A stretch of 50,173 nucleotides of DNA, taken from the NCBI GenBank assembly GCA_016218085.1, contig JACREY010000013.1, positions 1 through 50,173 on the forward strand, read 5' to 3'. The notes below the pieces were generated by a model, which did no database searches, was not told the origin of the DNA, and was given only the letters and a program-made list of their open reading frames with translations. Shown one piece after another: positions 21,461-34,720 of this stretch (positions are counted from its first letter, which is position 1; each line of letters starts with the position of its first letter). Made by a program: the position numbers and the translations under genes. The stretch comes from Ignavibacteriota bacterium (GTDB taxonomy: Bacteria; Bacteroidota; Ignavibacteria; Tepidaquicellales; Tepidaquicellaceae).

Positions 21461-21578
21461 AAAAAGTAGTAATGTAAATTATCCTTAAAATTATGAATTT
21501 TAGTTTAAATAAAATACTTAAATATTTGTACCCGGAATTGGAAAAAGATATGATTGTTAATATTTGTTTTATAATAAA

Positions 21579-22043
21579 TTAAGGATTGTTTATCTGATCC
21601 GTAGATATCTTAGTAATTATATCAAATGGATTTAAAATTGGAAGAATTGCGTTTTCTAATATTGTACCTGTAGATTTTGCAATCATCATACCCCTTGTGT
21701 TAGAAATTGATAATCCAATAATTGTAGCTAAAAAATTTGTTGGAATATTAATTTTATTTTCCTCTTTTTTTATTACCTCATCAAAATTGATTACTTCAAA
21801 TTCGTTTAATGTCTTTATTTCGCCTGCCAATTCACTTTTATCGGAATCGGTATATACTTTTACAGATGCTATTATTTCAGTAGTTTTTAAATCAAATTTT
21901 ATATTGTTAGTTATACTTATATCAAAAACAAAATCCGGTTTTCTTTTTCCGGATAAAATGTCTTCATTATATAATACTGAATATGAAAGAACTTTTACTT
22001 TTATTATTTTATATGTAACATTTAAATTTACTTGAGTTTCCAA
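21579..22043 (-). CDS. SecB-like chaperone of a putative toxin-antitoxin-chaperone module
   Basis: This 154-residue protein shows no enzyme motif, but its pattern follows SecB. KPDFVFDISI aligns with the SecB PEF/LD strand. A beta strand IIASVKVYTD comes next, then GEIKTLNEFEVIN, matching the E...GxF.I strand. IPTNFLATIIGLSISNTRGM matches the PxxLFPYxRxxIxxxxxxG helix, and AILPILNPFDI matches LAPVNF. SecB-like proteins in TAC systems protect the cognate antitoxin. It lies 24 bases downstream of the XRE antitoxin gene, in the usual toxin-antitoxin-chaperone order. The identification is by eye and needs a profile search. Confidence 0.6.
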   Translation of the reverse strand: METQVNLNVTYKIIKVKVLSYSVLYNEDILSGKRKPDFVFDISITNNIKFDLKTTEIIASVKVYTDSDKSELAGEIKTLNEFEVINFDEVIKKEENKINIPTNFLATIIGLSISNTRGMMIAKSTGTILENAILPILNPFDIITKISTDQINNP

Positions 22044-22067
22044 TTTTTAATTATTTTAATTATTTAT

Positions 22068-22523
22068 TTAAAAATTAACAGCTTTATTATATACAGATTC
22101 TGAAAAAATCAAATTAGTTGAATCTTTCGATGTCTTATTATTTAGATTGGTCGAAAAATCAGGTTTAAAAATGCTTAAATAGTATTTTGTTGGTAATTTT
22201 AACTCAGTATTCGATTCTATATAATATTTATAATCTATCTTCTCATTTTCCATATTTTCATAAAATGGTACTTGTATTAATTCTATCCCTAATTCCGATT
22301 CTATTTTTGCAATAGTTTTAATAGTAAAATTATGATATCCGCTTAACCATTTAGAAATTTCTGATTCGCTTTTTTTCATTTTTTCAGCAAATTCATTTTG
22401 TTTAATTCCTCTATCATTTAAAACGTGATATAAATATCCGGCTAAATCATGGGATAACCTGTGAAATCGCTTGCGGAATACAGGAATGCTTTCAATTATT
22501 TTATATATAATATTTTCAGCCAT
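22068..22523 (-). CDS. XRE-family HTH antitoxin with C-terminal extension
   Basis: This 151-residue protein has a Cro/CI-type helix-turn-helix at about residues 27-75 (IKQNEFAEKMKKSESEISKW followed by LSGYHNFTIKTIAKIESELG as the adjacent helices). A further roughly 65 residues have no HTH character and are rich in aromatic and polar residues (KYYLSIFKPDF, FSESVYNKAVNF). Antitoxins of TAC modules carry such a C-terminal chaperone-addiction extension, recognised by the SecB-like partner. It starts 3 bases after the toxin-like gene's stop and is followed closely by the SecB-like gene. It probably represses its own operon. Confidence 0.78.
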   Translation of the reverse strand: MAENIIYKIIESIPVFRKRFHRLSHDLAGYLYHVLNDRGIKQNEFAEKMKKSESEISKWLSGYHNFTIKTIAKIESELGIELIQVPFYENMENEKIDYKYYIESNTELKLPTKYYLSIFKPDFSTNLNNKTSKDSTNLIFSESVYNKAVNF

Positions 22524-22526
22524 TTT

Positions 22527-23009
22527 TTACTCCTCAATTTTAAATTCTAAATTTCCACTTAATTTATCATTTTCCCAGTATATTTCTCTGTCTCTTATTC
22601 TTTTATATATTAATCTTGATATTTCTTGTAAAAGTTCTACATTTTTTAGAAGTATAGGATAATCCTGATACGGTCCTTTACCTTTTTCTCCACCACCTCC
22701 CAATATCACAGCGATATTACTGTATCTCAGACAATATAATCTCAATTTTGACTTTCTGTTTGGAAGTGCGCAAACATTATCCGTTTTCTTTCCCTCTTCC
22801 ATTTTAAAAAAATTCTCTCTAGCACCATCTGTACTCACCATTCTGTTAATATCCATTAATATATCACCTAAATCGATTGAATTTTTTCTCTGATACTTTT
22901 TCACAAATTTCATAAATTCAGAATCACTTTCACCATCAAATTTTATTGAGTAAAAAGTACATTTCGATCCCGATAAACTTATTTCTTCTATTATAAACGA
23001 ACAATTCAC
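22527..23009 (-). CDS. Putative HigB/RelE-like toxin
   Basis: This is a 160-residue protein of no certain family. Its central part (about 84-120: RKSKLRLYCLRYSNIAVILG followed by a GGGGEKGKG loop) resembles the core beta strands of RelE/HigB-type toxins encoded beside XRE antitoxins in Bacteroidota. The C terminus is helical and charged. Gene order (toxin first, antitoxin 3 bases later, chaperone third) supports the reading. HigB-type toxins cleave mRNA on the ribosome; activity here is inferred from context. Confidence 0.6.
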   Translation of the reverse strand: MNCSFIIEEISLSGSKCTFYSIKFDGESDSEFMKFVKKYQRKNSIDLGDILMDINRMVSTDGARENFFKMEEGKKTDNVCALPNRKSKLRLYCLRYSNIAVILGGGGEKGKGPYQDYPILLKNVELLQEISRLIYKRIRDREIYWENDKLSGNLEFKIEE

Positions 23010-23096
23010 TTATAAGTTAAGTTCCTTTTAATTTAAAAAAAAGACATTTTTTAATACCTTCGATAAAATCTTTAGAAAACCACCAAATTTTGATGT

Positions 23097-26000
23097 TTAT
23101 ATGTCTTTTATTAATCTATCTATCTCTTTTATTTCCTTTTTCAATATTTCCCTTATCTCTAATCTCACATTCCCAAGATTTATTCCTGATATATCTTCTT
23201 TAAATTCTTTCCCAAAATGCTTTTCCACTTTTTGTGAACAAATATTTCCAAGCTCTGAAATATCAAGATGCTTTTGATTACTTTTATTGAATTGCGGATA
23301 CGGAACCTCAAGAATTTTTTTGTGAACATCCCTCGCTCCAAATAATCCCCTCGATTGAAAATCTTTTATTATTTTATTTGTGTATGAACAATTTAAAAAA
23401 CTACAAATATAATGAGCTTCTCTAATATCATTCGTTCCAAACCAATATGCTTTACTTTCTACTATAAACCCCAAATCAAAATCTTCTCTTGAAATTACTA
23501 CCGCGTTGGCATCCTTTGCGGATGCGGTATATAAAACTAAATATTTCTTATTTAAGTCTTGTTGTATTAATTTTTGTTGCCAATTTAAATAATCATATAA
23601 ATTAATATTTTTATTATTTTCCGTTTTATTTCCTTCCCAAATTTCTTCCGCTTTCCTAAACCACTCTGCTGTTTCTAAATCGCCTTTATCAAAAATTTTC
23701 TGTGAATTTAAAAGATTAATTTTATATTCAGTCTCATCTGACCCTGTTTTTTTATGCTCTTTACTGCTTATTTCTATTGGCAATAAAACAAGAGGCGGAT
23801 TAATTAAAACAAATGGTAATATATTTTTAGCAAGTGCAGTTTTAAATAAATAATTTGTATTTGCACGTCCGTTAAAAATAAAATCTCTCCATGGTTCTTT
23901 TGCATCTCTTAAACTTAAATCACTTGTTCTAAGCGTTATTATACTGTTTTTTTCAATAGTATTATTGCTTCCTATAAAATTATCTACTTCAACAAAATAA
24001 AAATTTCTCGGGACTATCGTTGCCCCCTGTTTAAATAAATCTTTGTAAAAATTTATTGCATCTGTCTCTTTTATTTTTTTATTCGTAAATGCAGTACGTT
24101 CACCAAGCTTTGAATAATACCAATTAATTTTTAGTATATCTATATTTTTATAGCTCTGTATATTTTTGTAATATGCATTTCCTTTTTTATCCTCGATTAA
24201 TCTCTCCGAAAAAGGATTTCCTGAAAAAGATAGACCTTCAATCCCACTCTTTGGTATTGACCTATTTTCTTTCTTTTCTTCGGGTGATTTATCGGCAAAT
24301 ACTACGCAAGATGGAATTCTGAATAACGGTGATACACCAACTAAATCCCAGACTTCCTTTATTTTAAATCCCAATGCTTTTCCTGAACGTGAATTATCGT
24401 GCTGGTCCGCCGATAAAAAACTCCTTGGCAGAACAAAAACAATCTTCCCGTTTTCTTTTAAAAAATATGATGATGAATGCGAAAGAAAAATTGCTGCAAT
24501 TTCAAGATGAGGCATATTCTTTTTCGATTCGGGTATCTGCTTATATTTTTCAGCCAAATTGTATAACATTTCCTGATAAGCAGAATTCGTAACATCAGAA
24601 TAAGTGATCCATGGTGGATTACCAATCACAAAATCGAATTGTTTACTTAATAAAAATGGTTTATAAATATTTTGTAGTATAAATTTCCAGATAGCATCCC
24701 TTTTTTCTTCTTTTGCTAATTTAAGACCTTCGTATATTCTATAAAAACTTGCCACTTCATCACTTCCATAGTTTTTTAATAACCCACTTTTTGATAATTG
24801 GTTTTCAAAACCTTTCAAACTGATTTTTTCCCCATTTAATGAATATTCTGCAAGATCATTGCAAAGGGATATAGAATTATCATAATTTCCTTTTTCATTG
24901 AATATCGATGTCTCAATTTCGTAATGTGTTTTATCTATCAATAACCTGAATTTATTTCCAAATAACCCTATGTCTTTTTCAGGCATTAATAATGAATTTG
25001 CGAGGAATACACCAAGGAATACTGGTTTTTTCGATTTCAAGATTCTATCGCTAATCCCTAAAAGTAAAGTAGTTTTAGATATTTGCACGGAAAGAGGGTG
25101 AATATCAATTCCAATAACTTGTTTTGCTATATCTTCGGCTGTAATATCCGGAAATTCTTTTTTTAATTTATTGCTTATTGCAAGTAGAAATGAACCGCTT
25201 CCGCAAGCCGGATCTAAAAAAGTTGAATTTCTCTTAAAAGTAATTGAGTCAACAATTTTCTGACACAACCAATCGGGTGTATAATATTCACCTAAAGAAT
25301 GTCTTGTTTCAAGGTCAATTAATTCCTGATATAATCCTTTTAATATATCTTCTTCGATTTCGGAAAAATCATATTCGTTTAATTTTTGAGTTATTTTGTG
25401 AAATATCGGTTTTAAAATTTCAAAATTCTCATCATTGCCCGCCCAGTGATAAAAATCATCATCAATAAAATTTTTCACATTTAAACTGTTAAATATATCC
25501 CCTCTGATTATCTTTTTTAATTCGTTATCACCGGAATATATTTTTTTTGTTAATACTGTATAAGCAAGAATTTTAGAAAAAATACTTAGGTAAGTATGAA
25601 CCAAAAAAACTTCTTCGGTAGCTTTAAATTTTCCGTATGCTATGCTTAAATATTTTTCCCATTGTTCATAAGCAACACTTAATTCAGAGTTTTTATTAAA
25701 TCCTAAAAATTCTTTTTTCATTAAAATAATAGAACGTATAAAAAGAATTGAAGTCTCTCCAAAATCATTTGAGATATTTTCAAGTGTAGCTCTTAATTTT
25801 TCTGTTTTAAAAAGATATCTGTCGAGAAAAAAAGGAAATGCTGCAAAATTCTTTTCGCTTAAAACAAATTTATCTGTTTCTCTTAATTTTATATCTTTTA
25901 CTTTTTTTTCTTTCCCAAAAATAATTTCTTCCGATTCGGGGGCATATATTTTCCAGTTTATGCAATCTGAAGCTATTAATGTGAAATTTATTGTTTCGCC

Positions 26001-26321
26001 CGAAAATAAATTTCCTGCTAAGTATTCCGCAAGTTGCTCTTTTGCATGTTCTCCGGTTGCGTTTAAGTCCCGTTCAAACTCTATTATAACTTTGCCATAT
26101 TGTGTATCAGCACTTCCGGTTTTTAACCTGTCTTTTAAAGGAATATTAAAAATTGTTTTTTCTGCACCGAGACTCATTTTATTAATTATTTTCCTTGCGT
26201 CTACATCTTTATCAAAAATTCTATTTAATAAATCTTTTAGTAATTCTTTTTTTGCAAGTTCGGTATTTGCTTTTTTTACGTTCGAATGGTATTCTTTGAT
26301 TAGAGAATTTTTAAACTGCAT
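23097..26321 (-). CDS. Eco57I-type restriction-methylase (type IIG-like)
   Basis: This 1074-residue single-chain enzyme has an adenine N6-methyltransferase domain in the middle: RHSLGEYYTPDWL at about 340, SAM motif I FLDPACGSGSFLLA at about 368, and catalytic motif IV NPPW at 568-571. The N-terminal part holds a nuclease-like block with Asp72 and Glu81/Glu83 (SADTQYGKVIIEFERD), consistent with a PD-(D/E)xK-related fold using ExE in place of ExK. The C-terminal third (SRGLFGARDVHKKIL) looks like target recognition. Such enzymes both methylate and cut. The nuclease call is weaker than the methylase call. It lies upstream of the TAC-like module on the same strand. Confidence 0.88.
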   Translation of the reverse strand: MQFKNSLIKEYHSNVKKANTELAKKELLKDLLNRIFDKDVDARKIINKMSLGAEKTIFNIPLKDRLKTGSADTQYGKVIIEFERDLNATGEHAKEQLAEYLAGNLFSGETINFTLIASDCINWKIYAPESEEIIFGKEKKVKDIKLRETDKFVLSEKNFAAFPFFLDRYLFKTEKLRATLENISNDFGETSILFIRSIILMKKEFLGFNKNSELSVAYEQWEKYLSIAYGKFKATEEVFLVHTYLSIFSKILAYTVLTKKIYSGDNELKKIIRGDIFNSLNVKNFIDDDFYHWAGNDENFEILKPIFHKITQKLNEYDFSEIEEDILKGLYQELIDLETRHSLGEYYTPDWLCQKIVDSITFKRNSTFLDPACGSGSFLLAISNKLKKEFPDITAEDIAKQVIGIDIHPLSVQISKTTLLLGISDRILKSKKPVFLGVFLANSLLMPEKDIGLFGNKFRLLIDKTHYEIETSIFNEKGNYDNSISLCNDLAEYSLNGEKISLKGFENQLSKSGLLKNYGSDEVASFYRIYEGLKLAKEEKRDAIWKFILQNIYKPFLLSKQFDFVIGNPPWITYSDVTNSAYQEMLYNLAEKYKQIPESKKNMPHLEIAAIFLSHSSSYFLKENGKIVFVLPRSFLSADQHDNSRSGKALGFKIKEVWDLVGVSPLFRIPSCVVFADKSPEEKKENRSIPKSGIEGLSFSGNPFSERLIEDKKGNAYYKNIQSYKNIDILKINWYYSKLGERTAFTNKKIKETDAINFYKDLFKQGATIVPRNFYFVEVDNFIGSNNTIEKNSIITLRTSDLSLRDAKEPWRDFIFNGRANTNYLFKTALAKNILPFVLINPPLVLLPIEISSKEHKKTGSDETEYKINLLNSQKIFDKGDLETAEWFRKAEEIWEGNKTENNKNINLYDYLNWQQKLIQQDLNKKYLVLYTASAKDANAVVISREDFDLGFIVESKAYWFGTNDIREAHYICSFLNCSYTNKIIKDFQSRGLFGARDVHKKILEVPYPQFNKSNQKHLDISELGNICSQKVEKHFGKEFKEDISGINLGNVRLEIREILKKEIKEIDRLIKDI

Positions 26322-26430
26322 CTAATGATTTATAAAATAATAAATAATTGAAACTAATTAATTTAAAAGTAAATTAATTTAAAAACAATATCCGAAAATA
26401 TATATAAATTATTAATGCTATTTTTACACC

Positions 26431-33484: not shown

Positions 33485-34720
33485 TTATCCGAGGAATTCT
33501 GAAGATTCCTCAAATACCTCAATAAAACTTTTATTCACATCATCCTTAATTCCTTCACCCAGCGGGAAGGGGGAGATGTGGTCATATTCGAAGGGAAAAT
33601 CCTTTTCTACAACATTTACCGGAATATCTTTATTTTTACCGCACAACGTAAGCTTTACAGAAGAAGGCGGAATGACATTATCTTTTGCAAGGGAAATTGC
33701 CTTTATCTGACCGGACAGGTTTTTCAACTTCTTTTCCCTGTATTCAGATTCAATATCAACATTAAGAAGGCTTTTAAAATCAAGTGCGGCGGGTTCGAGT
33801 CCGGAGAAATAGTTCCTCATACTTTTAGATTTCATAATTTCTTTATCGAAATTAAGGACATAGAAGTCAGTCATAGATTTATAGGTTTCGCTGTCATAAA
33901 TATACCTCGATGAAGGGTACATATGGCTCATAGCAGGTCCGCCGCAGAATAGCAGTGCTTTAGATTTGTCAAACCAGTTGTTATGATTATCCATCAGAAG
34001 GATTTCAGTCAGGAAAGCGCCGATTGAATACGAGAAAAAATCTATAGAAGCATTATTTTTAATGGCAGGATGATTACCCGATTTTATCTGATTGATAAGC
34101 TTAATAATATCATTATAAGTTCTCATTCCCGACCAGAAGAAAGTTTCGGGTTTGAACTGGAGTCTGGTACTAATGGCAGCATTCACGAAAGATGATTCGG
34201 ACAAATCAGGATACATCATCATTCGTTCTTTTGAAAGGTTATCCATACGCCGCGGGTGGTTCCAGGAAGGCAATACCCTGTTAATATGAAAGGAAATAGG
34301 AAACATAAGGACTGCCTTTCCTGTCATTTCAAGAAGGGCTTTTGCCCAAACATGATATTTATCCCAGCTTTTTTCGTTCAGTCCGTGCAGCAGGAATATT
34401 ACGGAATCCGATTTTGCCTTTTTATTATTTTTATAAACGGGATAAATAAAAACTTTGTTTTGCTGAACATCGGAATCCGGAAAATCAAAAATGCACTCTG
34501 ATTCAGGGCAGGAAATTCCTTTTTCCACTGCAATTTTTCGTATTATTTTTTTGTTCTTATTTGCAAGGCGAATGCATTCCAGTTTCTCAGGGAAGCGGTT
34601 ATTAAATTCTGAATAAAAAATAAAATTTAGTATAGAGAAATCCGACTCCGCCGGTTTAATAATTTCGGATTTATAGTTGTAAATCTTTTTAAGAAAATAG
34701 TAGTCTTTAAGGTAGTTCAT
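33485..34720 (-). CDS. DUF6051-like alpha/beta hydrolase
   Basis: The 411-residue protein shows an alpha/beta-hydrolase core. It has the oxyanion-side FLLHGLNEKSWDKYHVWAKA (about 128-147), then MFPISFHINR and PSWNHPRRM, and a nucleophile elbow DFFSYSIGAFLTEILL (about 230) whose Ser fits a variant GxSxG turn. A downstream SLAKDNVIPP could supply the acid residue and DHISPF the histidine. The pattern matches the DUF6051 family, known from Bacteroidota as uncharacterised. No signal peptide is visible, so it is likely cytoplasmic. The substrate is unknown. Confidence 0.75.
   Translation of the reverse strand: MNYLKDYYFLKKIYNYKSEIIKPAESDFSILNFIFYSEFNNRFPEKLECIRLANKNKKIIRKIAVEKGISCPESECIFDFPDSDVQQNKVFIYPVYKNNKKAKSDSVIFLLHGLNEKSWDKYHVWAKALLEMTGKAVLMFPISFHINRVLPSWNHPRRMDNLSKERMMMYPDLSESSFVNAAISTRLQFKPETFFWSGMRTYNDIIKLINQIKSGNHPAIKNNASIDFFSYSIGAFLTEILLMDNHNNWFDKSKALLFCGGPAMSHMYPSSRYIYDSETYKSMTDFYVLNFDKEIMKSKSMRNYFSGLEPAALDFKSLLNVDIESEYREKKLKNLSGQIKAISLAKDNVIPPSSVKLTLCGKNKDIPVNVVEKDFPFEYDHISPFPLGEGIKDDVNKSFIEVFEESSEFLG

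Follow-up and report, generated by a model that had tools for sequence, protein, structure and literature searches.

A probable toxin-antitoxin-chaperone module with a RelE/HigB-fold toxin in an AT-rich islet of an Ignavibacteriota genome

What is encoded by three closely spaced genes of an Ignavibacteriota bacterium, of whose products only the middle one contains a domain recognised by Pfam (HTH_3, 1.2e-9)? The genes occupy positions 21579-23009 of a 50,173-nucleotide stretch of contig JACREY010000013.1 (hereafter “the window”, meaning the whole stretch), and a preliminary description, made from the sequence, had read them as a toxin, an antitoxin and a SecB-like protein, possibly representing a new branch of the toxin-antitoxin-chaperone (TAC) systems. 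Our analysis makes it very likely that the locus is a TAC module with a RelE/HigB-fold toxin, which is probably a ribosome-associated mRNA endonuclease. This interpretation builds on computed models of the toxin and chaperone folds, on gene order, on the co-variation of an antitoxin tail with the chaperone gene, and on the accessory islet that the module shares with a restriction enzyme. Features of TAC modules that are present in sequence and models are adjacent co-directional genes, a SecB-fold chaperone, a known toxin fold, and an antitoxin extension that is tied to the chaperone.

To judge from their conservation, all three open reading frames are genuine genes, since 57 of 395 genomes of the phylum have relatives of the toxin, which also occur elsewhere, at 63 named loci (nearly all in Bacteroidota or close kin), and the order of the genes is kept. 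These 63 loci were obtained by scanning with a five-sequence alignment, larger alignments being too diverse for scanning; scanning viral and genome contigs with single sequences recovered no relatives, and the phages searched for the module gave no match. In the window, the genes lie on one strand with the coordinates (Table 1) and the gaps of 3 bases (toxin/antitoxin) and 24 bases (antitoxin/third gene) given beforehand; the relatives have mostly short or overlapping gaps, and in 76 modules the third gene directly follows the antitoxin. All three proteins match models of the PADLOC candidate PDC-M64 (toxin, PDC-M64B, 2.3e-42; antitoxin, PDC-M64C, 7e-28; third protein, PDC-M64C, 4.4e-15), a bare label with blank model descriptions that is named in no paper of the literature searched. 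The suggestion of a new branch of TAC stands, with the correction that the family was already listed, albeit unnamed. Promoter and terminator scans of the module returned nothing above chance, and palindromes are present upstream, but in a very AT-rich region. When the first start codon is called, GTG or TTG opens 67 of 99 toxin genes, 27 of 98 antitoxin genes and 16 of 76 chaperone genes; the excess among toxin genes may point to weak toxin translation.

The first protein is predicted to adopt the toxin fold of the RelE/ParE (BECR) superfamily, in line with its initial reading as a RelE/HigB-like toxin. Its AlphaFold2 model is confident (mean predicted local distance difference test score, pLDDT, 94.6), and the top 12 chains in a Foldseek search all contain a domain of the RelE/HigB/YoeB/ParE superfamily. 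Structural comparison by VIA ranks HigB of Streptococcus pneumoniae first (6af4; Z 10.5, root-mean-square deviation (rmsd) 3.2, 113 residues), and also matches HigB1, the TAC toxin of Mycobacterium tuberculosis (7nbu; Z 9.3), and RelE on the 70S ribosome (4v7j; Z 7.8). Residues 16-141 of the model align to HigB. Within the toxin family, F68, R90, G106 and K109 are invariant (alignment A2), while F68, E72, D77, C93 and Q115 are conserved and specific to it. A profile comparison by hhalign with Gp49-family HigB proteins drawn from related genomes gave a weak match (E 2.1e-5, probability 77), in which R90 and K109 are paired with an Arg and a Lys that HigB proteins conserve. Toxicity of the M. 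tuberculosis TAC toxin requires R77 and K95 (PMC9098466), and R90 and K109 would correspond to these residues when read through the conserved motifs rather than by superposition. Searching the PDB by sequence gave nothing significant or useful for the toxin.

The third protein is, by its model, a SecB-fold chaperone, as its strand-helix pattern had first suggested. The AlphaFold2 model, built from 26 sequences, has a mean pLDDT of 90.6 and shows the four-strands-then-helices order of SecB. In Foldseek, the best 18 matches are all SecB or the SecB-like TAC chaperone of M. tuberculosis (E 8.6e-6 to 5.7e-4; 8.6e-6 for SecB and 2e-4 for 5mtw), the latter a structure that was solved together with an antitoxin peptide. 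By VIA, the protein aligns with SecB (Z 11.5, rmsd 3.1, 136 residues) and with the M. tuberculosis chaperone (5mtw; Z 8.8, rmsd 3.1, 122 residues). At the sequence level, it scores below the curated cut-off of the Pfam SecB family (PF02556) and so has no match to it, a single-sequence search of Pfam/NCBIfam yielding a sub-threshold SecB hint (E 0.016); a PDB search with the chaperone profile found nothing significant, three of its four weak matches being SecB. The link to SecB is provided by sister modules (alignment A3: L054, L055, L056 and two more distant loci), whose toxin and antitoxin are as in the window module: Pfam calls SecB in three of their five third genes (best 1.6e-9, score 38.2 against a cut-off of 26), and hhalign joins window-type and A3 third genes nearly end to end (E 8.1e-7, 131 columns). 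A related module on a Bacteroides thetaiotaomicron plasmid (NZ_CP103284.1, 3947-5289), the outer two genes of which are annotated as hypothetical, has a third protein without a Pfam match that looks unlike both other SecB types.

If the third protein served general export, a known role of the SecB fold, the antitoxin tail could be incidental and the locus a two-gene toxin-antitoxin module beside a SecB-family protein that does something else. An export role is unlikely, because the window's own genome contains no PF02556 SecB, and because two of the three PF02556 matches among 61 genomes of the phylum are themselves third genes within this module family (G038, G046); the remaining one belongs to a different SecB-bearing cassette. 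Within this sample, the phylum thus appears to be largely devoid of export SecB. Two SecB-bearing cassettes of other make-up were noticed. In a genome of the window's family (G402), a HEPN-domain protein (PF05168, 1.8e-5), a 128-residue protein ending CLAA, and a SecB (PF02556, 1.5e-16) are encoded consecutively (locus L070, 685-1917, plus strand), which looks like a TAC module with a HEPN toxin. In genome G053, an 81-residue protein, a SecB (PF02556, 4.4e-9) and a 189-residue protein without a Pfam family follow one another (locus L151, 888-2136, minus strand), possibly another SecB-bearing TAC module with the toxin last.

The tail of the antitoxin bears on the relation between the second and third genes. 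In the window, it measures 64 residues after the HTH (helix-turn-helix) domain, close to the roughly 65 first estimated. Tails were compared across 97 relatives, no two of them identical, with enough sequence beyond the antitoxin gene, counting from the alignment column at residue 87 of the window antitoxin. All 76 relatives with a third gene have a tail of at least 26 residues, whereas 15 of the 21 without one have at most 23; the association is strong (Fisher p 3.5e-13, with a length cut at 24 that was picked after the lengths had been seen; rank test on the lengths, p 1.9e-7). It is also found in independent lineages: a maximum-likelihood toxin tree, built by a quick method so that some long branches are possibly misplaced, has at least nine switches in the presence of the third gene on well-supported branches. 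Of nine phylogenetically independent pairs, 6.8 have tail and third gene changing in parallel and 0 in opposition, while 2.2 show no tail difference (sign test, median p 0.016). Since the tail accompanies the chaperone gene within the family, the co-variation reads, at the level of sequence, as a signature of chaperone addiction. The 21 relatives that are two-gene modules by gene content would suit an unrelated third protein, but such a protein is hard to reconcile with a tail and a third gene that are gained or lost jointly, with an antitoxin that directly precedes it in module after module, and with a genome that has no other SecB of this family; we regard this explanation as quite improbable.

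By analogy with known TAC systems, the toxicity of the first protein, an attack on mRNA, the chaperone's hold on the tail, proteolysis and a phage trigger can be combined into a putative mechanism. The toxin with its RelE/HigB fold would halt translation, most likely by cleaving mRNA in association with the ribosome, and the HTH antitoxin would bind the toxin and probably also the promoter from which it is expressed. The tail would render the antitoxin unstable or aggregation-prone unless it is held by the SecB-fold chaperone. Once the chaperone is occupied by something else, plausibly a freshly synthesised phage structural protein, as happens with HigBAC and CmdTAC, the antitoxin would be degraded and the toxin freed, and the infection would abort. 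With respect to degradation, the last residue is Ala in 34 of 76 antitoxins from modules with a chaperone, compared to 5 of the 173 toxins and chaperones encoded alongside them; as these counts come from kin and the relatives are not independent, a p-value would overstate the difference. In CmdTAC, the antitoxin CmdA has LAA at its C-terminus and undergoes degradation via ClpP (PMC11618068), and the Ala ends of the tailed antitoxins likewise resemble a ClpXP degron.

Several observations weigh against the TAC interpretation or parts of it. For the toxin, the Foldseek E-values are weak (best 0.029), no Pfam family recognises it, and none of 41 relatives scanned matches the Gp49/HigB families above cut-off. 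Moreover, in the strand that reads YEIR in HigB, the Glu and the first Arg are not conserved in this family, so that the toxin chemistry may differ, and the usual HigB active site cannot be taken for granted. The module could therefore be a TAC system whose RelE-superfamily toxin is no mRNA interferase and acts on another target, for instance gyrase, as ParE does, or tRNA or rRNA. ParE chains are indeed also among the structural matches, and the family-specific residues would fit a modified pocket; the best matches, however, are HigB toxins, including that of the M. tuberculosis TAC system, and the alignment places R90 and K109 opposite residues of the HigB catalytic pocket. We consider a different target unlikely, although it is the least improbable of the alternatives. 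For the antitoxin, 6 of the 21 relatives without a detectable chaperone gene nevertheless carry a tail; in two of them, the closely related L066 and L028, the tail is unlike that of neighbours with a chaperone, as if it had been rearranged. The window antitoxin itself ends in AVNF rather than Ala, and its own degron, if any, is therefore not apparent. Finally, a comparison of defence genes around relatives with those in 20 matched control regions speaks neither for nor against an enrichment: among the matches listed, both contained restriction genes, and the control regions also CRISPR genes.

A relationship to CmdTAC with its ADP-ribosyltransferase toxin is very improbable: the three-part logic and gene content are shared (PMC11618068), but the confident toxin model has a RelE/HigB fold, and no CmdTAC model is among the PADLOC matches. 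That the locus is an XRE regulator beside two unrelated proteins is hardly credible, for although Pfam recognises the HTH domain only, both outer proteins have confident fold models (SecB and RelE/HigB) and the three-gene order is conserved. The two outcomes that the preliminary description had named as fatal to it, a third protein unlike SecB or a first protein unlike any toxin, were thus looked for, and neither occurred.

Known TAC toxins are HigB, HicA, MqsR and an ADP-ribosyltransferase (PMC5105189; PMC11618068). With the M. tuberculosis system (HigB1-HigA1-SecB-TA, Rv1955-Rv1957), the window module shares the order of toxin, antitoxin and SecB-like chaperone, the toxin and chaperone folds, and the extended antitoxin C-terminus. 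It differs in its toxin, which, as first noted, is much longer (160 compared to about 125 residues), has extra strands at both ends, and lies outside the Pfam HigB/Gp49 families; the chaperones share about 8% identity in the aligned region. HigBAC of Escherichia coli, which has a phage lambda tail protein as trigger, likewise combines a HigB-type toxin, an HTH antitoxin and a SecB-like chaperone, and phage defence has been proposed for it (PMC11980606, citing Mets et al. 2024); its toxin is of the Gp49 type, whereas that of the window is no Pfam Gp49 member. CmdTAC (PD-T4-9) has the same three components, and its antitoxin, unlike that of the window, carries the C-terminal LAA degron. By our reading, the module is of the TAC kind, but its toxin and chaperone escape the standard families, and it has many natural two-gene relatives.

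More tentatively, the family might be a separate TAC class, in bacteria largely without export SecB, in which the chaperone only guards the antitoxin and senses phage, addiction has been switched on and off repeatedly among close relatives, and a rearranged HigB pocket (R90, R95, K109 and Q115, with the family-specific F68, E72 and D77) maybe serves a different target; we hold this to be possible rather than probable. The TAC interpretation as such would provide a likely function for a PADLOC candidate that is widespread and in which public annotation has hypothetical proteins on either side of the antitoxin. How toxin-antitoxin systems became addicted to SecB chaperones is an open issue of the field (PMC4257090). 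Relatives without the chaperone mostly lack the tail, and the family can thus show both gain and loss of chaperone addiction; as it offers natural pairs with and without chaperone and tail, the origin of SecB addiction is directly testable by swapping tails and chaperones.

Table 1. Coordinates of the module genes, the antitoxin tail and the neighbouring restriction gene in the window.
Feature	Position	Strand	Remarks
Toxin, 160 residues	22527-23009	minus	GTG start; predicted RelE/HigB fold, extra N-terminal strand, C-terminal three-strand extension
Antitoxin, 151 residues	22068-22523	minus	ATG start; HTH_3 domain (residues 36-82) plus C-terminal tail
Antitoxin C-terminal tail, residues 88-151 (64 residues)	22071-22262	minus	Candidate chaperone-addiction (ChAD) element
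SecB-like chaperone, 154 residues	21579-22043	minus	TTG start; SecB fold by model
Type IIG restriction enzyme-methyltransferase, 1074 residues	23097-26321	minus	Neighbour in the same AT-rich islet, outside the TAC module

Just upstream of the module lies a gene for a type IIG restriction enzyme (PADLOC REase_MTase_IIG, 2.7e-68; Pfam Eco57I, 4.7e-14), which forms with it one AT-rich islet of about 5 kb (window positions 21500-26400). The module has a GC content of 0.26 and the restriction gene one of 0.29, compared to 0.38-0.42 in the flanking genes. In two relatives (G402 and G399), the islet is absent and its flanks, the genes for an M14 peptidase and ATP synthase beta, adjoin at a distance of about 210 bases, with no gene between them in G402; restriction enzyme and module hence constitute an accessory islet, which was gained here or lost elsewhere. 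Elsewhere in the window, the gene at 33485-34720 (minus strand) encodes a full-length match to DUF6051 (2.3e-108), a family of unknown function.
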